From contig JAADFL010000014.1 in NCBI GenBank assembly GCA_013152945.1, forward strand, positions 1 through 9,800: a DNA stretch of 9,800 nt, read 5' to 3'. Position 1 is the stretch's first letter. Every line of letters begins with the position of its first letter. A program made the position numbers and the translations under genes. Source of the DNA: Deltaproteobacteria bacterium. GTDB lineage: Bacteria; Myxococcota_A; JAADFL01. The notes beneath the pieces were generated by a model. It was not told where the DNA came from, ran no database searches, and saw only the letters and a list, made by a program, of their open reading frames with translations. This document shows positions 1 to 9,800 of this stretch, piece after piece.

Positions 1-62
1 GCAGTGCAGGTCTCGGCCTTGTTCTCCTCCTTGGGCTGGGCCTCTTGAGAAGAAGGAAATAG
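1..62 (+). CDS. C-terminal end of an exported protein with a hydrophobic GL-rich anchor and RRRK tail (partial)
   Basis: Only the last 19 codons are visible, read in the frame starting at base 3 and ending at the TAG at 60-62. They encode a continuous Gly/Leu/Val hydrophobic helix followed directly by Arg-Arg-Arg-Lys and the stop. This is the layout of C-terminal sorting tails (PEP-CTERM, MYXO-CTERM and similar tripartite signals), in which a transmembrane helix and a basic cluster end a secreted protein. The diagnostic motif that would lie just before the helix is outside the window, so the tail class cannot be named. A strong terminator about 35 bp downstream supports this being the real end of a gene. 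Confidence 0.6.
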   Translation, partial: SAGLGLVLLLGLGLLRRRK

Positions 63-95
63 CACGGCATTATTACCCCACATTCCCTTATTATC

Positions 96-130
96 AGGGC
101 CGCGGAGCAAAACCGCGGCCCTTGATTTTG
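96..130 (+). terminator. Rho-independent terminator
   Basis: A perfect 9-bp GC-rich stem (GGGCCGCGG at 97-105 with CCGCGGCCC at 113-121), extended by an A96-T122 pair, encloses a 7-nt loop and is followed by the T-rich stretch TTGATTTTG. It lies 34 bp after the partial gene that ends at 62 and is the expected transcription end for that gene. It also separates that gene from the radical SAM locus downstream. Confidence 0.85.
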
Positions 131-144
131 TACAATAACAGTCG

Positions 145-180
145 ACATGGACACCATGTTTCACTTGACACCGAGTGTCA
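145..180 (+). promoter_or_regulatory. Putative operator/promoter with two tandem 15-bp dyads
   Basis: Two inverted repeats of the same 6-3-6 layout lie side by side. ACATGG-aca-CCATGT is at 145-159 and TGACAC-cga-GTGTCA is at 166-180. Their centres are 21 bp apart, two helical turns. A perfect TTGACA hexamer (165-170) overlaps the second dyad and could be a -35 element, but the hexamer 17 bp downstream (CATGCT at 188-193) is a poor -10. The layout suits a dimeric regulator binding on one face of the helix and controlling the downstream ORFs. The promoter assignment is weak. Confidence 0.35.
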
Positions 181-199
181 GTAAATTCATGCTTCCTCT

Positions 200-301
200 A
201 TGAAAAAAGGTTCGTGCCCGAGGTATAGAAAACAGGAAATAATACTCTTTTCGGTGGAAAGATATTTAATGGAGAACATACGGAATGAGAGATCGTATTG
301 A
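200..301 (+). CDS. Small 33-codon ORF translationally overlapping the radical SAM gene
   Basis: ATG at 200 opens a 33-residue basic ORF (MKKGSCPRYR at the N-terminus, ENIRNERSY at the C-terminus) that ends at TGA 299-301. The last base of its stop is the first base of the radical SAM start codon (TGATG), the arrangement typical of translational coupling. It has one Cys, several Arg/Lys and Tyr residues, no membrane segment and no recognised family. No convincing Shine-Dalgarno lies before 200; internal starts at GTG 254 or ATG 269 would give shorter peptides. It could be a leader peptide, a precursor substrate for the radical SAM enzyme, or a chance ORF. An in-frame stop at 182-184 limits it upstream. 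Confidence 0.3.
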   Translation: MKKGSCPRYRKQEIILFSVERYLMENIRNERSY

Positions 302-2040
302 TGCAGCAGGAACATGTCGAATATCGATTTATTTTAACAGCACCGGCTAACCGGAACCGGGTATGGATCACACGCCTTGGATCCTGCAACAACAACTGTA
401 TATTCTGCAACCAGGAAGAATATCTGGCAAATCGAGATGTGTTTTCCTGTAATTCCCCGTTGTGCCTAATCGAAAAAGTCGAGTGCACGAGCTTGGGACA
501 GGACACGGAGATCGTGTTAACCGGGTCGGAAATGACCATGTTGCCATGGCTATGCGAACTGGTAACAGCCCTTTCGAAACTTTACACAGGCAAAATTACC
601 CTGGAAACCAACGGCCGAATGCTCGCCTATGAGAGGTATGCGGAACACCTGGCACAATGTGGTGTTTCACTGTTTTCCATTTCCCTGCATTCCATGGACC
701 AGGCAATCCACGACCAAATAACCAGGACGAGCAGCAGTTTCGCCCAAACAATGCAGGGCTTGAATAATGTTGGCCGTTTGGGGGCCGCATGGGAAATAAG
801 GTGTTCATTGACCAGGGCTAATTTGATTTCGCGAGAACTCCAATCAATTGCCGGGTTGGTATCAAACAAGGAAGGTTTGGGAATATCCTTTTCACTTTCT
901 GCAAAACGCTCAACAGGTCCTTGTTTGAAGGATTGCGGCGAGGCTGTACGGCCGGCTATTGCAATGGCCCTGGACAAGGGGGGAATATACGCAGGTGTTA
1001 AGGGCTTGCCCTTTTGCATGCTCCGGGGCCTGGAATCATGCGTACAAGATTTCGATCCATTGGACCTGCATAAATACCATGGAATGGAAACACCATCAGA
1101 CAAATGTGTTAAGTGTGCCATGCTTGCGGATTGCGGCACTGGCAGATATGGACTCTTGCTAAAGCAGGATTCGGCGGACATCACTCCGTTGACCGGTTTA
1201 AAGTATGTTTTCATCCCGCTGTCCGGTCCATGTGACAATCATTGCATCTTTTGTTGCAAGGGAGACTCTGGCGGCAAGGCGGTTGAACCGGTTCAACCGG
1301 TAATGAAAGCCATTCGGCGGTTCGATGCGTCCCGAAAGCTGAAACCGCTCATCGGAGGCACTGAACCCCTGATCCATCCCGGGCTGTTCCCATTATTGCA
1401 TGAGCTCAAAGCAACCGGTTTTTCGGGCATCGAGATACAAACAACCGGCCGCCGGCTGAGCTCCATGTACATTATCAATAAACTTGCAGCGCTTGAAATA
1501 AAGGGTTTCCACATTCCAATATATGGTTCAACAAGCGAAATACATGACAAGATCACCTATTCCAAAGGAAGTTTCAAAGACACGGTACAAGGAATAGGAA
1601 ATGCTTTGAACAATGGATTCCAAGTTCATCTGCATACATTGCTGCTTGTCCAAAATAAGGCACAATGGCAAGAGGTCGGCAAGTTTGCCAAACAAGAGTT
1701 CGGTTTGAACGTCACGTACCTCATGCCCTTTCCAGATACAGAGGATGCTTCGAAATATAAGACGTGTGTTCCAAGGTTTTCCGACGTACCAAGGAATTTG
1801 CTTGAAAACATGGATATCGGTATTCCCTGTATACAAAATCCCGACAAAAAAAATGGAATTCTCAAACCGTCCATGAGGGAAACAATGATTCTCCTTGTAC
1901 CACCGAAGCGGAGAAGCACATGGGTAAAGCTTTCAACGTGCTCGAAGTGTTCAGTGAATTCATCATGCACCGGTATATGGCCAGGCTATCTCGAGGTATA
2001 TGGTGATTCGGAATTCAAGCCCATTTTAAGCAATCCTTGA
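301..2040 (+). CDS. Tandem double radical SAM protein with two Cys-rich tails
   Basis: This 579-residue protein consists of two radical SAM modules in a row. Module 1 has the cluster motif C29-x3-C33-x2-C36, a beta-strand LETNGR (101-106), an SLH...IHDQITR segment (129-142) and a Cys group C269, C272, C278. Module 2 has C311-x3-C315-x2-C318 followed by an extra C319, a proper GGTEP (352-356), the matching YGS...IHDKIT segment (408-419) and a Cys group C547, C550, C556 before a Tyr-rich end. Each module should bind a 4Fe-4S cluster and S-adenosylmethionine; the trailing Cys may ligate an auxiliary cluster. In module 1 the GGEP-type SAM-contact motif is replaced by TGSEM (74-78). The substrate is unknown. 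The family resembles uncharacterised deltaproteobacterial radical SAM proteins with C..C.....C tails. ATG 301 is chosen because GAGAG lies 9 nt upstream at 287-291; TTG 298 is an unlikely alternative and TGA at 286 blocks further extension. Confidence 0.85.
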   Translation: MQQEHVEYRFILTAPANRNRVWITRLGSCNNNCIFCNQEEYLANRDVFSCNSPLCLIEKVECTSLGQDTEIVLTGSEMTMLPWLCELVTALSKLYTGKITLETNGRMLAYERYAEHLAQCGVSLFSISLHSMDQAIHDQITRTSSSFAQTMQGLNNVGRLGAAWEIRCSLTRANLISRELQSIAGLVSNKEGLGISFSLSAKRSTGPCLKDCGEAVRPAIAMALDKGGIYAGVKGLPFCMLRGLESCVQDFDPLDLHKYHGMETPSDKCVKCAMLADCGTGRYGLLLKQDSADITPLTGLKYVFIPLSGPCDNHCIFCCKGDSGGKAVEPVQPVMKAIRRFDASRKLKPLIGGTEPLIHPGLFPLLHELKATGFSGIEIQTTGRRLSSMYIINKLAALEIKGFHIPIYGSTSEIHDKITYSKGSFKDTVQGIGNALNNGFQVHLHTLLLVQNKAQWQEVGKFAKQEFGLNVTYLMPFPDTEDASKYKTCVPRFSDVPRNLLENMDIGIPCIQNPDKKNGILKPSMRETMILLVPPKRRSTWVKLSTCSKCSVNSSCTGIWPGYLEVYGDSEFKPILSNP

Positions 2041-2071
2041 TAATTCGGGCCTGTAATTTCATATATATAAT

Positions 2072-2905
2072 TCAATGATTGAATGCCTTTGCCAGGGCAA
2101 CCAGGATTCCCTGGGCCGACATATCGACCAGTGTTGTATAAATGCCCCCGGCCAATCTTGCAATCTCTCTGCCCATACCGGGTTCTTGCCAAGTCGCATC
2201 CGTGTCCATAAAAATGAAGGGAAATTTCTCTTTTGCCACTGCTGCCGCCGCCAAGCGGGCTTCTTGAACCGCATCACCGGATCTTATCGGCGAGTTTGGC
2301 TTGCCGTCTGAAATCACCACCATTACCGGGACCGATCCTTTCATCCTTGTACGCTCCCGCCTTAATTCACCGACAGCCTTTTCAATACCAGCAGCCAGGG
2401 GTGTCTTTCCGCCGGCAGGCAAACGGCTCAAGTACCGGCGCGCCTGATCCACACTGTTTGTCAGCGGCAGGAGCAACTTTGCCTCAACTCCCCGGAATGT
2501 CACTAATCCCACCCTGTCACGCTTTCGGTAGGCATCTGTCAGGATTGACAAAACAGCAGCCTTTGCTTCTCTCAAGCGCTGATTCTTGCGCATCGATCCA
2601 CTGGCGTCTACTACGAACATTATTGAGGCTCCAATCCGCTTTTCTCTTATCTTCTCTCTCCAATCCTGGTTTTCGAATTTCATGGTTCCGGTCATGTTGT
2701 CTTGAAGGGCCATGCTCCTTTGGACCTGGTATGGTGCTGCCGCGATGATGGTTGCAGTCAAGGCCGGATCCCTTACCTTTTTTGTTGCCGGCCTTCTGGA
2801 ACCGGTCATTGTTCCCTTTGCATCCAAGCTTTCGGCTCTTAACCTCCTGCCTGTTGCCGAGGAACCGCCTGCTGTGAAGGGCCTGAAGGAAAGGCCGGAT
2901 TTCAT
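2072..2905 (-). CDS. VWA-domain chelatase D part (ChlD/CobT-like), probably expressed by frameshift from the upstream AAA gene
   Basis: From the ATG at 2905 this frame gives 277 residues: a basic, Arg-rich linker (about 1-45), then the ChlD-type segment DPALTATIIAAAPYQ and a VWA domain. MIDAS metal-site residues are intact: DASGS at 100-104, the Thr in GGKTPL at 165-170, and Asp in ISDGKPN at 199-205. This is the C-terminal half of magnesium/cobalt chelatase D subunits, which organises the AAA ring and contacts the large metal-inserting subunit. The ATG has no Shine-Dalgarno; the bases before it read CTTTCAAG. The same frame is open upstream for 22 more codons (VIAHPKLDIN...) to base 2971, exactly at the poly-A end of the AAA frame, so the natural product is probably a 663-residue I-D fusion covering 4062 to 2072. 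The stop faces the radical SAM stop about 30 bp away. No terminator was seen downstream. Confidence 0.85.
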   Translation of the reverse strand: MKSGLSFRPFTAGGSSATGRRLRAESLDAKGTMTGSRRPATKKVRDPALTATIIAAAPYQVQRSMALQDNMTGTMKFENQDWREKIREKRIGASIMFVVDASGSMRKNQRLREAKAAVLSILTDAYRKRDRVGLVTFRGVEAKLLLPLTNSVDQARRYLSRLPAGGKTPLAAGIEKAVGELRRERTRMKGSVPVMVVISDGKPNSPIRSGDAVQEARLAAAAVAKEKFPFIFMDTDATWQEPGMGREIARLAGGIYTTLVDMSAQGILVALAKAFNH

Positions 2906-2967
2906 CTTGAAAGCATGATCTGGTTCATCAATGGAGAGGTCGTTGATGTCCAGCTTGGGATGAGCGA

Positions 2968-4062
2968 TTACTTTTTTTTTTCAGAAAAGGAAACCGGTGA
3001 TTCCAGATCACTGGCCGGTCTTTGCTTCATCCTTTCAATGGTTTGTCGTACCTGGCCCAGGGCTTGAGGAGAATCGTCGAAAGGACTTTTCCTCAACCTG
3101 TGGGGATAGGCCAATTCAGCGGCGGCAAATAGATGCTCATCTTCAACTTTGGTACGCCCTGCCAATGCAGCCAAACCACAGGCCGCCTTCACAGCGGCAA
3201 TCTCGGCACGATGTCCGTCAACACCCAGTTCTTCCGAAAGTCTTGCAGCCTTTTCCAGGATGGCATTTGACGGTTTGATATCTGAAATCATTTTTCTTGC
3301 CATGACGATTGAATCTGACAGGCGCTTTTCCTGATCAGTCCACAAAGAACAAAACTTTGAAGGGTCTCTTTCAAAGTCAAGGATTCGTCTCAGGACCTCG
3401 ACTCTCTGGTCATGTCTATCAGCAGCGCTGACCTCGACCGAAAGATCAAAGCGATCTGTGAGTTGGGGCCTCAAGTCACCCTCTTCCGGGTTCATCGTGC
3501 CGATCAAAATCAAACGGCTTGGGTGTGCATTACGCACACCCTCTCTTTCTACTATATTGGTTCCAAAAGCTGCTACGTCCAAAAGCAAATCAACAATGTG
3601 GTCGGGCAATAAGTTTACCTCGTCGATGTACAATATACCACGGTTGGCTTCAGCCAGGAGACCGGGGCGATATCTTCTCTTTCCCTCCTTGATCGCCGAT
3701 GTCAGGTCGATATCGCCTGTAATCCGATCCTCCGTGCAACCTACCGGCAGGTTGACAAACGGCATCGGGCGTTGGACGATTTCGATGTCTTGGCCTGATT
3801 TCAGAAGGCCGATGCACGATTCACATGCCGAGGCCGGATCATCCGGATCGCAACCATAGGGACAACCCTTTATAGCCTGTTGTACCGGCATCAGCTTGGT
3901 AAGGGCCCTTGCAACGGTGGATTTCCCAGTGCCTCTTTCTCCCCGAATGACAACGCCCTTTAAACCGGGGTGAACCAGGCACAATAGCAGAGCATTCTTC
4001 AAAGTTTCTTGATTTACAATAGCGGAAAAAGGAAATCCGGGATTATCCGAGCCCAACGACAT
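2968..4062 (-). CDS. AAA+ ATPase subunit of metal chelatase (ChlI/BchI/CobS-like), zero-frame product
   Basis: This 364-residue MoxR/ChlI-class AAA+ ATPase has a perfect Walker A (GERGTGKST, 41-49), Walker B (ILYIDEVN, 143-150), and the sensor region GTMNPEEGDLRPQLTDRF (188-205) typical of magnesium chelatase I subunits. A sensor-2-like GVDGHRAEI follows at 280-288. A four-Cys insertion (C67, C71, C80, C83), common in fused chelatase I-D proteins, may bind metal. I subunits form a hexameric ATPase ring that works with the D and H/CobN subunits to insert Mg or Co into a tetrapyrrole. The start has GGAG 8 nt upstream. The protein ends in SEKKK with the TAA directly after the A10 run, and the -1 frame continues into the VWA region. 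Which metal it handles cannot be decided here; fused proteins of this type usually pair with CobN for cobalamin. Confidence 0.9.
   Translation of the reverse strand: MSLGSDNPGFPFSAIVNQETLKNALLLCLVHPGLKGVVIRGERGTGKSTVARALTKLMPVQQAIKGCPYGCDPDDPASACESCIGLLKSGQDIEIVQRPMPFVNLPVGCTEDRITGDIDLTSAIKEGKRRYRPGLLAEANRGILYIDEVNLLPDHIVDLLLDVAAFGTNIVEREGVRNAHPSRLILIGTMNPEEGDLRPQLTDRFDLSVEVSAADRHDQRVEVLRRILDFERDPSKFCSLWTDQEKRLSDSIVMARKMISDIKPSNAILEKAARLSEELGVDGHRAEIAAVKAACGLAALAGRTKVEDEHLFAAAELAYPHRLRKSPFDDSPQALGQVRQTIERMKQRPASDLESPVSFSEKKK
2971..2981 (-). other. Putative programmed -1 frameshift/transcriptional slippage site (A10G) joining chelatase I and D frames
   Basis: On the coding strand the run is GAA AAA AAA AAG followed by the zero-frame stop TAA (2970-2968). 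It contains A-AAA-AAG in the correct phase, the same -1 slippery heptamer used by Escherichia coli dnaX. Slipping back one base gives GTA ATC GCT ..., which is open through 22 codons into the VWA ORF. Adding one A by RNA-polymerase slippage on ten A residues would give the same result. A possible stimulatory stem-loop lies downstream at 2953-2920 (CTGG/CCAG and CATCAA/TTGATG, 11-nt loop), but it begins 17 nt after the heptamer, further than usual. No clear upstream Shine-Dalgarno-like stimulator was seen. Confidence 0.75.
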
Positions 4063-4100
4063 TAATTTTCTCCGCTAAATCTTTCCACCTGCCGAAACAA

Positions 4101-5132
4101 TCAAACAATTCCCGGCCTATCATGCCCGTGCTCTGGTTGTTCATCCTGAATGCCAAGAAAATATTCGGCTTCCCGGACTATGGTATTCCAAATCTCCCTT
4201 TCCAACTCTGAAATGCTCCTGCAATATGATTCCAGGTTGTCTTTGAACAATATGACTCTTACCTCTCCTTTAACATCTCCGCCTTCAATCTCGTGCTGCT
4301 CAAAAAATCCGGGGGCTCTCGGGTCCACGCCATCCTCCACCAGTTCCGGGGTCGGCCGTCCCTGTACCACGATGTCCACGTTTCCGAGTTTTTTTGACAA
4401 TTCGTCCGGCAGACTCTCAATCACCCTGTCCGCAAGGTTTTCGAATTCCTCGACAGACAATTTACTACTATTCGGAGATTGAGCCATACTTTCCAACTCT
4501 AAAACCCTTTGAAATTCCCATACAGCCTCTTCTTCCTCGCCCCGCTTAAGGTGAACAAGTGCAAGGGCATAGTGGTTTTCCGGGTTGCCTTCTTCCCGTT
4601 CTATCAGGTCCGTCAACTCTATGAAGGCCTCATCCAGTCTTCCGGTCTCAAAAAGAACCCTTGATCGAAGTTGCATGTAATCGGAGCGCAGGTGCATTGG
4701 TCCCGAAATACTATCCAGGTCTTCCATGGCCTCTTCGGCCTTTCCCATGTTCAGCATGGCGTCGGCACGCATTATTCTCGCCAGGGAAACCGCCTCGACC
4801 TCTTCTTTCCCCTTGACCCGTGAATCGATTATACCAGATGCAATCCGCGCAGCTTCTTTGAAATCCCTCGAATAATCCAAGTGGGTTTCAACTGCGGACA
4901 AAGCGGCCTCGAAGTAATCCGGCTCTATTTTGGCCGCCCTCTCGAACAATGCCAGTGCTTCATCAAGGGCGCCGAGTTCCTTCAATGCCCTGCCCAACAG
5001 CGTCAGGGCTTCGGGCTCGCTTGGGAAAAAAGCAAGAACCTCCTTGGCCGTCCTTCTGGCACTTTCGAAATCACCTTCAAGGATCTTTTCCCATCCCTTT
5101 TTCAACAATGCACTTGCATCTTCATCTTTCAT
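4101..5132 (-). CDS. TPR protein with a C-terminal degenerate zincin-like (minimal metallopeptidase) domain
   Basis: This 343-residue soluble protein starts with tetratricopeptide-type helical repeats: about 8-75 in two clear units, further helices to about 175, and another unit around PENHYALALVHLKRGEEEEA. Its C-terminal 100 residues resemble the small zincin-like metallopeptidase family, with LPDELSKKLGNVDIVVQGRP, then VILFKDNLE and a helix that should carry HExxH. Here that helix reads REAEYFLGIQDE (320-331): both zinc-binding His are replaced (R320, Y324) while the Glu is kept. It is therefore probably a non-catalytic scaffold. ATG 5132 is preferred, with GGGAG about 12 nt upstream; an in-frame TTG at 5156 would add 8 residues but has no ribosome site. 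It lies 63 bp after the ceramidase-like gene and 38 bp before the chelatase gene, consistent with cotranscription. Confidence 0.8.
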   Translation of the reverse strand: MKDEDASALLKKGWEKILEGDFESARRTAKEVLAFFPSEPEALTLLGRALKELGALDEALALFERAAKIEPDYFEAALSAVETHLDYSRDFKEAARIASGIIDSRVKGKEEVEAVSLARIMRADAMLNMGKAEEAMEDLDSISGPMHLRSDYMQLRSRVLFETGRLDEAFIELTDLIEREEGNPENHYALALVHLKRGEEEEAVWEFQRVLELESMAQSPNSSKLSVEEFENLADRVIESLPDELSKKLGNVDIVVQGRPTPELVEDGVDPRAPGFFEQHEIEGGDVKGEVRVILFKDNLESYCRSISELEREIWNTIVREAEYFLGIQDEQPEHGHDRPGIV

Positions 5133-5195
5133 AATCAGTAAGTTCTCCCGCCCCAATTGCTATGGTGATAATAACGCTGTTCAGGTACAAAGAGC

Positions 5196-6899
5196 TTAGT
5201 CACCATTTTTCTCATCTTCATCACCGGCAGTGTTGTTACCATCCTCGCTATTCGTTCCCCGGTCATCTTGCCCGTGATCACCGAAATCAGCCGGGGGGCC
5301 GAGTCTGGATGGTTGGCGATCTTCTTTTTCAACTCCTGTTGCGCCCGGTTGGTTTTCCTCTGCCGCGGCTTTTGTGGCAAGCTCGCCCAAACGTGAATAG
5401 AGCGTCCCAAAAACACTTTTTCCAAAAGAAACCGATTTAAGATATTGCATGTACCAGTCATCTTTTTCAGAGAATTGATCCTCGGTCAGAACATATCCGA
5501 TTTCCGTATCGAAAAGGTTTACTACAGCATTGAGTTTGCCGCCCAGTAAGTCCTTTACCGGTTCAGCAGCCTCTCTCGAAAATTCGCCGGGAACGAGGGC
5601 AATTTTTACCGGGCCGATCTCCAGGAAACCTAACCTGGTGGACATCTCGGCGGACTGCTTCGGAGTTCGACCGAATATTACACCCGTCCTTCCAGCGAGC
5701 AGTAAAAGCTTGCTTTCGACCTTTAATTTCACCCTGGCGAGCCGCAAGCGTAATCTGGGTGACTCCAGTTCGATTCCCTTTTCCACAAGCCCCTGAAAAG
5801 CAGTCTCTGCCAAGGCCCGCCCTGTTTGACGTTTATGCCAAAACCTGTTCCTGAGTGAACCGCTGTATACCGGCTCAGGCTCTCTTCCTGCAAGCGGCCC
5901 CATTGTCACGAGTCCAGTGCCTCCCCGTATCCACTCTATGAACTTGCAGACCTCGCCCGGCCAATCCGCGCTGATGAGTTGATTTCTTTCCCATAATGTT
6001 TCAGCATGACAGTCGTAGTGTATCCATGTGGCAATCGCATCACCGTTCTTGTCATCCGCGGACATAACAAAGATGGTATCTTTTTGTTGGGCTGCTTGCG
6101 CGGCCGGAATCTTATACAAACGCCTGCATATCCTGCCCGGTGCCTTTACGCGGGCAGCCTTCAACTCGGCAGGAACCGCTGAATTTGCCGCGCGATGCAC
6201 CGCCAGGGCGGCCATTCGTTCTACGAACCTCAAATAATCGGGATCCACGCCGCACCTTACAGGAACAAGCTTAAACAGCGCCGGGCCCCAATAACCGATG
6301 GTATCTGGGGCATCATGATTGTGAACCGCAACCACCAGGATGTTCTCCGGGTGTTCGGCGCTGGCCATTGCGCCTATCCTTGCGGACGTTTCCGAAAGGA
6401 CGCCGATGACATCCAAGGTTACCAGCGCAACGGCCTTTTCGGGATCAGCAAGGACCAATGCTCTGGCGAATATCGGGTCAGCTACGCCACGGGCCTCTCG
6501 CTGCGGGCCGAATCCGGCCATGTACATCCCCTTTGGATACCTTGGTGTGATATCCACGGCTGCAGAACCGGCAAGCAATGTACCTGCGGCCTTGGCCCGT
6601 TCGACCAGGTGGTCGAAAGGATAACCTTCAATAGGCGCGGATTCAATATTTTCAAAATCCGAAGCCTGAAGTAAACCAGGCATGGATACTGCTAAAAAAA
6701 ACACAAGGACAGACACTAACCTGAAGCAGTTGGCAATAGTTTTTTTCAGCATTTCGATCATATTGCCGAAGGATCGGGGTGATTGGCAAAGCGTAACAAC
6801 AAAGTCATACCTGCAGGTATTTCGAGGAGGAGCGCCGCAGCCGGTCGATTCGAGAGCCGACGGGGGGCGGAAAATATTATTGACAAGGGCTCCAGTCAT
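5196..6899 (-). CDS. Neutral/alkaline ceramidase-like exported or membrane-anchored protein
   Basis: This 567-residue protein has the N-terminal fold of neutral/non-lysosomal ceramidases: LLAGSAAVDITPR (108-120), MAGFGPQREARGVADPIFARALVL (127-150), the metal-site loop HNHDAPDTIGYWGP (193-206) and a second His cluster HYDCHAETLW (294-303). Family members hydrolyse N-acyl sphingosines or are uncharacterised; the substrate here is unknown. A hydrophobic segment at about 57-78 (LVSVLVFFLAVSMPGLLQA) is a signal peptide or anchor. The ATG at 6899 has a near-perfect GGAGG 5 nt upstream but puts 46 residues before this segment; M47 or M50 would give a standard signal peptide but lack a ribosome site. 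The last ~55 residues are a polar, acidic, low-complexity tail. It lies downstream of thymidine kinase after a 141-bp gap. Confidence 0.75.
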   Translation of the reverse strand: MTGALVNNIFRPPSALESTGCGAPPRNTCRYDFVVTLCQSPRSFGNMIEMLKKTIANCFRLVSVLVFFLAVSMPGLLQASDFENIESAPIEGYPFDHLVERAKAAGTLLAGSAAVDITPRYPKGMYMAGFGPQREARGVADPIFARALVLADPEKAVALVTLDVIGVLSETSARIGAMASAEHPENILVVAVHNHDAPDTIGYWGPALFKLVPVRCGVDPDYLRFVERMAALAVHRAANSAVPAELKAARVKAPGRICRRLYKIPAAQAAQQKDTIFVMSADDKNGDAIATWIHYDCHAETLWERNQLISADWPGEVCKFIEWIRGGTGLVTMGPLAGREPEPVYSGSLRNRFWHKRQTGRALAETAFQGLVEKGIELESPRLRLRLARVKLKVESKLLLLAGRTGVIFGRTPKQSAEMSTRLGFLEIGPVKIALVPGEFSREAAEPVKDLLGGKLNAVVNLFDTEIGYVLTEDQFSEKDDWYMQYLKSVSFGKSVFGTLYSRLGELATKAAAEENQPGATGVEKEDRQPSRLGPPADFGDHGQDDRGTNSEDGNNTAGDEDEKNGD

Positions 6900-7040
6900 T
6901 TCATCCTCCGACCGTCTCCAGCAATTCGAGCGCAGGAGACCTCATTACCCTTGAATCGCTCCCTATCAGACCAAGACTCTTGATGCAAGGATAGAGTCGC
7001 TGGCAATATCGGGTTCCCCATCACGTTGGTTATTCAACTC
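6900..7040 (-). other. Intergenic gap between tdk and the ceramidase-like gene
   Basis: This 141-bp gap holds no ORF of note. Two weak inverted repeats are present: GACTCT/AGAGTC (6975-6980 with 6993-6998, 12-nt spacer) and an interrupted stem overlapping the tdk stop (7029-7038 with 7050-7059, one mismatch, 11-nt loop). Neither is followed by a T-tract in the direction of transcription, so no terminator is called. A minus-strand TTGCAT could be a -35 but has no good -10. A separate promoter for the downstream genes is possible but not demonstrated. Confidence 0.35.
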
Positions 7041-7634
7041 TCATTTTTTGTTGAACAACTCTTCCTGTCCGTCTGCGCCTTTTGGATCGAAGCAGCGCCT
7101 GCACCTGGCCTCGTACCTGTCTCCTGCACCGATCTCTACCCTCGAATCACCGCCATGAATCCTCTGTGATCGGTTGGCCGGGTTCCCACAACGGACACAG
7201 ATTGCCAGCATTTTATCTATATATTCAGCTACTGCGAGAAGACTTGGAATGGGTTCGAAAGGCTTTCCCGTATAGTCCTGGTCCAACCCGGCGACAATCA
7301 CTCTCACACCCCGGTTCGCCAAAGTTTCGCAAACCCCGACCAACTCCATGCCGAAGAACTGGGCTTCATCTATGCCTACCACCTCGGTCTTGGGATCGAC
7401 CTTTGAGAGAATTTCTTCCGCTCTCTCAATCGTCAAAGATGCCAGTCTTTCACCGGAATGACTGCCGATCTCAGTCTTTGACCACCGGTCGTCCATGGTA
7501 GGCTTGAAAACCTGTACTCTTTGTCTGGCTATGACCGCCCTATTCACCCTTCTTATGAGTTCTTCGGTCTTTCCGGAAAACATGCTCCCGCATATTACTT
7601 CGATCCAACCTGTTTCAACCGGTATCCTGGGCAA
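7041..7634 (-). CDS. tdk: Thymidine kinase (type II)
   Basis: This 197-residue enzyme phosphorylates thymidine to dTMP with ATP in the pyrimidine salvage pathway. The Walker A P-loop GSMFSGKT is at 16-23, the catalytic Glu is E90 in GIDEAQFF, and the substrate lasso region GLDQDYTGKPF is at 117-127. A structural zinc site is formed by C146-x2-C149 and C178-x2-C181. All catalytic and zinc residues are present and the length is normal for bacterial TdK. The chosen start is TTG 7634: GGGAG lies 8 nt upstream and spans the stop of the preceding nucleotidyltransferase, 4 bp away. The longer in-frame opening at 7727 would add unrelated residues overlapping the upstream gene. The tight junction indicates translational coupling. 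Confidence 0.93.
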   Translation of the reverse strand: MPRIPVETGWIEVICGSMFSGKTEELIRRVNRAVIARQRVQVFKPTMDDRWSKTEIGSHSGERLASLTIERAEEILSKVDPKTEVVGIDEAQFFGMELVGVCETLANRGVRVIVAGLDQDYTGKPFEPIPSLLAVAEYIDKMLAICVRCGNPANRSQRIHGGDSRVEIGAGDRYEARCRRCFDPKGADGQEELFNKK

Positions 7635-7638
7635 ATCA

Positions 7639-8247
7639 TCATCTCCCGTCGGCTTGAAAGCGTACAAGCAGCCTATTATAGTCTGTGGGGCTGTCAATAT
7701 CGTCCAGCACAGCCGGATCGTCAACAACTAGTCGATAGAGTGAGCCTTTTTTATCCGCCAAGGCAATAATGTCCCGGGCCGAGTGTACCTCGTCTGACTT
7801 GAATTCACCGACAAAGGCCCCCCCGAAAAGGACCGGGTGACCCGATTTTCCATGGTAGATCGGCACTACCACGTTGTCATGCGAAGCATGTTCCAGCATT
7901 CTTTTGATAACAGCCTCTGATACTACCGGACAATCAACCGGCCACATCAGCATGGAAAAATAATCATTGGTATCCGGTACCAACATTTTTGATACAGCAT
8001 CTTTTATCCCGCCTACGGGACCAAGTTCAGGCCTGGTATTTATCAGCAGCCTGGCTTTTTCCGCGAGTAGTGGTAACAATTCACTGTCCGATGACGAAAC
8101 CGTTACCACTATGTCCAGCAAGCCTGCGCAGGCACCTGTTTCGAGGATTTTTTGAATGAATGTCCTGCCTCCTATCTTAAGGAGCGCCTTGGTCCGGCCC
8201 ATTCTCGTCGAACTACCGGCCGCCAGAATCAATAAGACAGTTTTCAT
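7639..8247 (-). CDS. MobA/MocA-like NTP transferase
   Basis: This 202-residue GT-A-fold nucleotidyltransferase has the nucleotide-binding signature LAAGSSTRMGRTK (8-20), GPVGGIKDA (76-84), a metal-binding PVDCP motif (103-107), GHPVLFG (136-142) and the closing DIDSPTDY (183-190). The combination is closest to molybdenum-cofactor cytidylyl/guanylyltransferases (MocA/MobA), which transfer NMP from an NTP to molybdopterin. No molybdoenzyme or other cofactor gene is nearby, so the acceptor is uncertain. The ATG follows the TAG of the GAF gene by 2 bp, with AAGG 8 nt upstream. Its stop lies within the ribosome site of tdk. Confidence 0.85.
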   Translation of the reverse strand: MKTVLLILAAGSSTRMGRTKALLKIGGRTFIQKILETGACAGLLDIVVTVSSSDSELLPLLAEKARLLINTRPELGPVGGIKDAVSKMLVPDTNDYFSMLMWPVDCPVVSEAVIKRMLEHASHDNVVVPIYHGKSGHPVLFGGAFVGEFKSDEVHSARDIIALADKKGSLYRLVVDDPAVLDDIDSPTDYNRLLVRFQADGR

Positions 8248-8249
8248 GG

Positions 8250-9596
8250 CTACAGCCTTGCTCCCTCATCGATCAACAGCCTTTCAGCCAACTTGGTACC
8301 CAGAAAAGTAATTGCGTTCAACTCCTCCTGACCGAAATTCTGTCTCCCCATCCTGTTTACGAGCTCCATCGCACCGAAAATACGCCGATCGGCTTCCAAG
8401 GGCGCATAGAGCACGTTCAACACATCGGTTGATAATCTCTCACTGATTTCAGCCACCATAGTGGGATCATCCATTTCCGAAAGGACCATGCCTACGCCCT
8501 CTTCAATGGTGAAGCCGAGTAAACCCTGACCTTGTTCCAATCTATGTCCAAGCAACTTTTCCGCCCAAGGTCCCCTTGATGTGGAATAGAACAGGTCATC
8601 ATTATTGATATCCGCCAGTATTATGGATCCACCTTCTGAATCCACCTTATCCAGAGCCAAATCAAGGCAGAAATCTATTGCATCCTGCAGTGACATTGCG
8701 CCCAAAAGTGCGGCATCTTCGAAAAAGGATTCAAGCAATTCTTCTGCCGAAGGAATTTCCTCCGGCTCCAAAAACTCGAGACCTGGTTCCGATACTTCCT
8801 CCTGCTGCTGTGTATGCGCAAAGACTTCTTCCCTTGGAAGATGTGCTGCTACCTCAGGCAATTGAGGAGGTTCTTCCATTAGTTCAGGTGACGGCGTTGC
8901 AGGTTGGGCAATGGATAGGGCATCCTTTTTTGCCGCCTCTGCGGCAGTGAGTTCCTTTACCCTGAATACCCTGTTTGATTTTGGATGATTTATCACCATA
9001 GAGCCATCATCTTTACGTTCCACCATGATGTTCTTTACCGAATCCTGGGGCTCACCGATTCTTCCCAGGCCGGAACGAACAGCAGCTATCCAGCTCGGAG
9101 CCATCAGTGTTATCGTGTAGTCTGCAGTGGAATTATCTCCTGCCGGTATGAAAACTTGGAAATGCTTTAGCATCTCCTCCCTGGTCTTTTTTCGTTGCGG
9201 CAGTTTCGTTTTTTCGACAGAACTTTTGGATTTGGGAGCAGGCTTTTCCTGTCTTTTAGTCTCTTTTCGTGATTCGCAAAGGGAACCAGGTGAACTTTTT
9301 TCGTATTTTGATACAGACTGTTGCATATGATCGTCTGCTTCCTTGGAAACCGAAGATCCAGTTTCAGCTTCAATTTGTCTGACAATGAATATTCGTCCAC
9401 TTTTCGGATGACTTACACGCATGCTCCCGTCTTGGCCCTTCTCGACCATGATATTTTTGACCGTGCTCGAATCCTCTCCCTTGAGGCTCAGGGCCTGCTT
9501 GAAAGCCATTACCCAGGATGATGCATCGACCCTTACTGCATTGCTTTCCGAGCCCACCCCTTCGTTTTCAGGAATAATTACCTCGAAGATAGACAT
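8250..9596 (-). CDS. GAF-domain protein with two copies of a small N-terminal domain
   Basis: This 448-residue cytoplasmic protein has three parts. An unnamed domain of about 75 residues occurs twice: at 1-75 (SIFEVIIP ... SWVMAFKQAL ... KNIMVE ... DGSMRVSHPKSGRIFIV) and at about 144-217 (HFQVFIP ... SWIAAVRSGL ... KNIMVE ... DGSMVINHPKSNRVFRV). The copies are joined by a Lys/Ser-rich linker (80-143). An acidic Pro/Glu linker (220-290) leads to a C-terminal GAF domain (about 300-445) with GGSIILADI, GQGLLGFTIEEG and VLYAPLEADRRIFGAMELVN. GAF domains bind small ligands or mediate dimerisation; no output domain is attached, so it is probably a sensor or adaptor. ATG 9596 follows AGGAGGG with 5-nt spacing; ATG 9623 upstream is in frame but lies inside a hairpin and lacks a ribosome site. 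It is the first gene of the minus-strand operon. Confidence 0.8.
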   Translation of the reverse strand: MSIFEVIIPENEGVGSESNAVRVDASSWVMAFKQALSLKGEDSSTVKNIMVEKGQDGSMRVSHPKSGRIFIVRQIEAETGSSVSKEADDHMQQSVSKYEKSSPGSLCESRKETKRQEKPAPKSKSSVEKTKLPQRKKTREEMLKHFQVFIPAGDNSTADYTITLMAPSWIAAVRSGLGRIGEPQDSVKNIMVERKDDGSMVINHPKSNRVFRVKELTAAEAAKKDALSIAQPATPSPELMEEPPQLPEVAAHLPREEVFAHTQQQEEVSEPGLEFLEPEEIPSAEELLESFFEDAALLGAMSLQDAIDFCLDLALDKVDSEGGSIILADINNDDLFYSTSRGPWAEKLLGHRLEQGQGLLGFTIEEGVGMVLSEMDDPTMVAEISERLSTDVLNVLYAPLEADRRIFGAMELVNRMGRQNFGQEELNAITFLGTKLAERLLIDEGARL

Positions 9597-9601
9597 GTCA
9601 A

Positions 9602-9630
9602 CCCTCCTAGAATCAAACACCATGATTCTA
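9602..9630 (-). promoter_or_regulatory. Hairpin abutting the ribosome binding site of the first operon gene
   Basis: A perfect 8-bp inverted repeat (TAGAATCA / TGATTCTA, 9630-9623 with 9615-9608) with a 7-nt loop ends on the first A of the strong AGGAGGG ribosome site (9608-9602). The position suits an mRNA-stabilising or translation-modulating hairpin at the 5' end of the operon. Confidence 0.4.
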
Positions 9631-9800
9631 CATTGTTCTTGTATCCCAAAGGAACCTTCCCGAGCAAGTTCCCCTTGCCAACCAACCGCCCCCCCCGGGC
9701 CCGTCCGGGCCCGTCCCCACCCACGTTGATTTTCTTCCTGCCTGATTTTTTTGTAATTACAAGTATCTATGGCATGACGCGTGCAAGCCTGTCATGCAAA
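9631..9800 (-). promoter_or_regulatory. Upstream leader/promoter region of the minus-strand operon with repeats and dyads
   Basis: No gene is seen in this end region. Reading inward from the window edge it holds an inverted repeat GCATGAC/GTCATGC (9772-9778 with 9791-9797, 12-bp spacer), a perfect 12-bp palindrome TTGTAATTACAA (9751-9762), two adjacent copies of CCGGGCCCGT (9695-9704 and 9705-9714) and an 8-bp C run (9689-9696, G8 on the transcribed strand). A weak GCAAG/CTTGC hairpin lies at 9664-9678. The dyads could be operators and the GC block a strong leader structure. No confident -35/-10 pair was found. Confidence 0.35.

Follow-up and report, generated by a model that had tools for sequence, protein, structure and literature searches.

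A divergent chelatase gene predicted to yield a short and a long product by -1 slippage on a run of ten A

Frameshifting into the -1 frame in 'magnesium chelatase' genes was predicted by Antonov et al. in 2013, for a cluster comprising six genera of bacteria and archaea (PMC3711429). In an E. coli reporter, the -1 shift in that study reached 63% with a run of 11 A, 40% with 9 A and 10% with 7 A (PMC3711429). The heptamer A_AAA_AAR is under strong purifying selection in these chelatase genes, while the potential to form structure is not strongly conserved in sequence (2016 review, PMC5009743). The name fs-chlD was used for these genes by Kuznetsov, Milenkin and Antonov in 2022; in their account Chloroflexi and Spirochaetes carry fs-chlD without a large subunit, Anaerolineaceae carry fs-chlD plus a separate chlI, and a downstream stimulatory RNA structure is usual and is not described as required (PMC9227772). 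Runs of A before a stop codon are also known outside the chelatases. In Citrobacter rodentium, the tssM1 gene has 11 A before its stop codon and undergoes transcriptional slippage, producing a short and a long form which are both needed (PMC4256274). In many bacterial genomes, A/T runs of nine nucleotides or more are evidently avoided within coding sequence (PMC1088944).

The window analysed here is a stretch of 9,800 nucleotides from a deltaproteobacterial genome (GCA_013152945.1, contig JAADFL010000014.1, positions 1 to 9,800), available as a draft assembly of 4.84 Mb in 218 contigs. Its minus strand carries a chelatase gene in two frames, the features of which are listed in Table 1. Across the junction the zero frame reads TCT-GAA-AAA-AAA-AAG-TAA and the -1 frame TGA-AAA-AAA-AAA-GTA-ATC. 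The tract contains exactly ten A in this assembly (2981..2972), the first of which is also the final A of the TGA that closes the -1 frame. The open AAA and VWA frames consequently share only 13 nt, made up of A10, G and the stop codon, and the change of frame must fall within the A run.

Table 1. Features of the chelatase gene in the window
Feature	Position	Strand	Remarks
Zero-frame ORF, AAA+ ChlI/BchI-like subunit, 364 aa	2968..4062	-	ATG start
-1-frame extension	2072..2971	-	22-residue linker and VWA domain, 299 aa
Slip site AAAAAAAAAAG (A10-G)	2971..2981	-	A_AAA_AAA and A_AAA_AAG, in phase for -1
Zero-frame stop TAA	2968..2970	-	right after the AAG codon
TGA closing the -1 frame 5' of the A run	2981..2983	-	leaves the two frames an overlap of 13 nt
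First ATG of the VWA frame	2903..2905	-	no Shine-Dalgarno-like sequence before the ATG
Ribosome site of the AAA ORF, GCGGAGA, core GGAG	4069..4075 (approximate)	-	sequence context

An earlier, sequence-only reading of this DNA had placed the TAA directly after ten A; the ten A stand, but a G intervenes. Its other statements on the anatomy were confirmed. The -1 frame is indeed open for 22 codons from position 2971 to the first ATG of the VWA frame, with no GTG or TTG start between the slip point and that ATG, and the ATG is, as had been claimed, devoid of the kind of ribosome site that precedes the AAA ORF. The heptamer A-AAA-AAG was correctly said to be in phase for -1 slippage, a property which A_AAA_AAA shares. 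The predicted sizes were also right, namely a 364-residue ChlI-like protein and, after a -1 slip, an I-D fusion of 364 + 299 = 663 residues. One added A would turn the chelatase gene into a plain in-frame fusion.

Both parts of the gene retain the motifs of their domains. The AAA part contains Walker A (GERGTGKST), Walker B (ILYIDEVN) and a sensor region (GTMNPEEGDLRPQLTDRF); Walker A had been described as intact and proved to be so, aligning with that of BchI in PDB 1g8p (6e-89). Profile matches for this part were 1e-111 to TIGR02030 and 1e-136 to TIGR02442. The VWA part keeps the MIDAS residues (DASGS, T, D) and matches VWA_2 (4e-20), the C-terminal part of TIGR02442 (2e-68) and the BchD VWA domain in PDB 2x31 (7e-22). 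The joined 663-aa protein spans positions 1-640 of 641 in TIGR02442 and 1-606 of 608 in BchD-ChlD, although it falls below the curated cut-offs of both; for TIGR02442, the putative cobaltochelatase family of in-frame chlD, it scored 682.8 bits against a full-length cut-off of 779.45. The fs-chlD description fits the gene: an N-terminal ChlI/BchI AAA+ ORF of 250-500 aa (here 364 aa), an adjacent VWA domain in the -1 frame and in the correct order, giving a fusion of 500-800 aa (here 663 aa), and an A_AAA_AAR in phase where the two frames overlap. The gene resembles the fs-chlD family in having AAA+ followed by VWA, a -1 transition in the linker, a poly-A slip site, and a short I and a long I-D product. 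It differs from the family in being very divergent and from a lineage without close relatives, in sharing its genome with an in-frame cobN-chlD-chlI operon, and in that a stimulatory structure was not detected. A further paper on fs-chlD recoding, by Antonov in 2020, is among those cited by Kuznetsov et al. in 2022.

Relatives were sought by scanning bacterial and archaeal genomes, and the best 80 of at least 578 matches were fetched. Among these 80, the same -1 arrangement of AAA and VWA frames was found in 44 other genes, nearly all from Chloroflexota. An in-phase A_AAA_AAR was present at the overlap in 43 of the 44 (44 of 45 when the window gene is counted). Elsewhere in the same 45 genes the heptamer occurred in phase 13 times in 29,223 codons (0.00044 per codon), so that about 0.4 would be expected by chance in the 863 overlap codons, as against the 43 relatives observed. 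Many of these genes are closely related to one another and do not amount to 43 independent events; even so, the slip site has plainly been retained among them. The run is A9 in 31 relatives, A10 in six, A7 in five and A8 in one, with no run in the remaining one. A close likeness is seen in fs-chlD genes of Anaerolineae, in which the break involves the same -1 frame at the same place: two of them, one from Anaerolinea thermophila (L026) and L034, read A9-G-TAA-TCAC and a third (L069) A9-G-TAA, compared with A10-G-TAA-TCGC in the window. Their AAA parts are about 47-51% identical to that of the window gene.

Some of the fetched genes depart from this pattern. One in-frame fusion (L052, about 3260-3420) lies within the Chloroflexota fs group and retains CCA-AAA-AAA-GTC; a -1 slip there would shorten the product rather than lengthen it, a reversal reminiscent of dnaX. 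In Methanomicrobium (L038, about 2689-2731) the AAA and VWA frames are separated by a -1 break that has no A run, reflecting either a sequencing error or another mechanism. In a member of the Methanophagales (L062, about 6896-7119) the two frames stand in a +1 relation, again with no A run.

No close relative of the window gene was found, its host being the sole member of its class in the genome set. No match at 1e-20 was obtained in 56 genomes of the same phylum, and a sample of 377 genomes from the phylum yielded only distant BchI/BchD pairs, one in-frame fusion (L115) and one piece at a contig end. Three of these same-phylum loci (L111-L113) look like neighbouring BchI and BchD genes; they lie beside a PucC-like transporter ORF, which suggests that photosynthesis gene clusters may occur in the phylum. 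Aligning homologues across the junction had been proposed as a check on the sequence-only reading. Comparison with the relatives sustained it as regards the motif, present in 43 of 44 genes, and the A9-G-TAA of the three Anaerolineae, but gave no close relative in which exactly ten A could be compared, nor any -1 arrangement among the pairs and the fusion from the same phylum.

In a tree of the AAA domain, the fs genes of Chloroflexota fall into a single clade with strong support. A free, short tree search placed the window gene on a long branch outside this clade. Trees constrained to join it to the Chloroflexota fs genes as a single clade were not rejected (p-AU 0.69 and 0.83), and the likelihood of the one-clade tree with p-AU 0.83 was 15.6 units above that of the free short search. 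An independent origin of the frameshift in the window gene is not needed, as the one-clade trees fit equally well or better. A common origin with the Chloroflexota genes, by way of transfer, is possible on these trees.

We consider it highly likely, from the sequence comparisons, that the window gene is an fs-chlD, from which -1 slippage on the A tract yields both an I product of 364 aa and an I-D product of 663 aa. The sequence-only reading had proposed as much, and it finds support in the gene's anatomy, in its relatives and in published work. Ribosomes would read the AAA+ domain up to the A run, where some would terminate at the TAA to release a ChlI-like small subunit. Others would slip back by one base on A_AAA_AAA or A_AAA_AAG, enter the VWA frame and produce the I-D medium subunit. 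Slippage by RNA polymerase on the A10 run may raise the amount of shifted product. The small and medium products would then be expected to assemble as an AAA+ motor. The sequence itself establishes the ORFs and their phase, the 13-nt overlap, the slip site with its recurrence among relatives, and the intact motifs of both parts; what we infer includes the slippage in this host, its rate, the assembly of the products and their substrate. A downstream hairpin was considered as a stimulator and rejected, since the RNA downstream folds no better than shuffled sequences (z = 0.01 and -0.74), and no Shine-Dalgarno-like stimulator was seen 5' of the A run. The principle was rightly said to be known already (PMC3711429, PMC9227772). 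The suggestion that the A10 form might be undescribed did not survive, however: ten A fall between the 9 and 11 A of the published reporter cassettes, which covered 7, 9 and 11 A, and six relatives have A10, so that this gene is an instance of the described mechanism. The chelatase frameshift is very probably a real feature, already known in kind, of which this is a new and divergent example, extending a known family of recoded genes to a divergent lineage.

The alternative with the greatest claim to attention is that the fusion arises mainly during transcription, the polymerase adding one A or dropping two on the A10 run and ordinary translation then giving both products. This overlaps with ribosomal slippage as proposed above, which may include such a contribution. 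It has a precedent in the A11 of Citrobacter tssM1, which the window gene resembles in its poly-A before a stop and its (here predicted) short and long forms, although that protein is unrelated to chelatases and there the slippage is transcriptional. The avoidance of A/T runs from nine nucleotides onwards would also fit, as would the lack of a ribosomal stimulator structure at the window gene. On the other hand, five relatives have only A7, a short run for a polymerase to slip on, and 43 of 44 genes keep A_AAA_AAR in the ribosomal phase, which slippage by a polymerase does not require. Because the A7 relatives keep that phase, ribosomal slippage is favoured, and a mainly transcriptional origin is the less likely reading, if one to be taken seriously.

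The remaining explanations are weaker. The sequence-only reading had named a homopolymer error as its main alternative, whereby the true tract would be 11 (or 8) A and the gene a plain in-frame chlD of 663 aa. Homopolymers are error-prone and this is a draft in many contigs; the same genome contains an in-frame ChlD of 673 aa, and the tract length has no confirmation from a close relative. Such an error is nevertheless improbable, as the same arrangement recurs in 44 relatives, 43 of them with the identical frame break, place and motif. Moreover, runs of at least ten A occur at only eight places in the 4.84-Mb genome, making an accidental one in the linker unlikely, and a tract of 11 A would remain a slip site in any case. 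Two separate genes, where reinitiation or coupling would let translation of the VWA ORF begin at its own ATG (2905), might be suggested by the position of that ATG, 62 nt past the AAA stop, and by BchI and BchD often being separate. Yet the ATG has no Shine-Dalgarno sequence, a VWA protein lacking the AAA domain corresponds to no known chelatase subunit, and the residues encoded 5' of this start codon can be aligned to an in-frame fusion (L015); we regard this reading as very unlikely. Least probable of all, by a slight degree, is a decaying pseudogene, in which a true frameshift mutation in a redundant chlD is tolerated because another operon supplies the function. In favour of this, the gene is a second copy in the genome and sits on a long branch. 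Against it, neither frame is otherwise disrupted, the motifs are complete, and the break falls at the slip site that is conserved.

The other copy is conventional. The only CobN/ChlH of the genome lies on contig C212, followed by in-frame ChlD and ChlI, in an operon (L110, G000:C212:44000-58000, 4086-11085) of cobN (1306 aa), chlD (673 aa) and chlI (349 aa). This operon adjoins ABC transporter genes, FecCD/BtuF-like by reading, and its ChlD and ChlI both retain Walker A. The C212 ChlD (TIGR02442) and ChlI have the same two domains as the window gene and neighbour CobN; unlike the window copy, the C212 set has no frame break, has a separate chlI and is linked to cobN. Linkage of CobN to the window copy, as a CobNST-type system would have, was not found. 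The separate operon therefore makes the window copy a second, stand-alone set, and leaves the label 'cobalt chelatase', which the sequence-only reading had invoked, unsupported for it. As a tentative and rather doubtful suggestion, the stand-alone fs-chlD could form a two-size AAA+/VWA motor without a large subunit of its own. The motor's target would then be some other partner, conceivably a different metallo-cofactor or a complex of proteins, and the A10 run would set the I:D ratio. The presence of recoded and conventional chelatase sets in one genome bears on the role of ChlI-ChlD pairs without a large subunit, a question raised previously (PMC9227772).

None of six neighbouring window proteins matched anything near the fetched relatives. 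On the same strand as the chelatase gene, at 4104-5156 (-), is a gene for a TPR protein with a C-terminal zincin-like domain, in which HExxH was not seen; about 40 nt separate its stop from the chelatase gene downstream, and the two may form one operon. Convergent with the chelatase gene is one at 298-2037 (+), encoding a 580-aa protein with two tandem radical SAM domains whose best match is of the HxsC type. Elsewhere in the genome, an apparently intergenic region (L104, G000:C205:15165-15240) carries repeats of the form CCCTATTTTT...GCGTCC, with T runs of 9-11.
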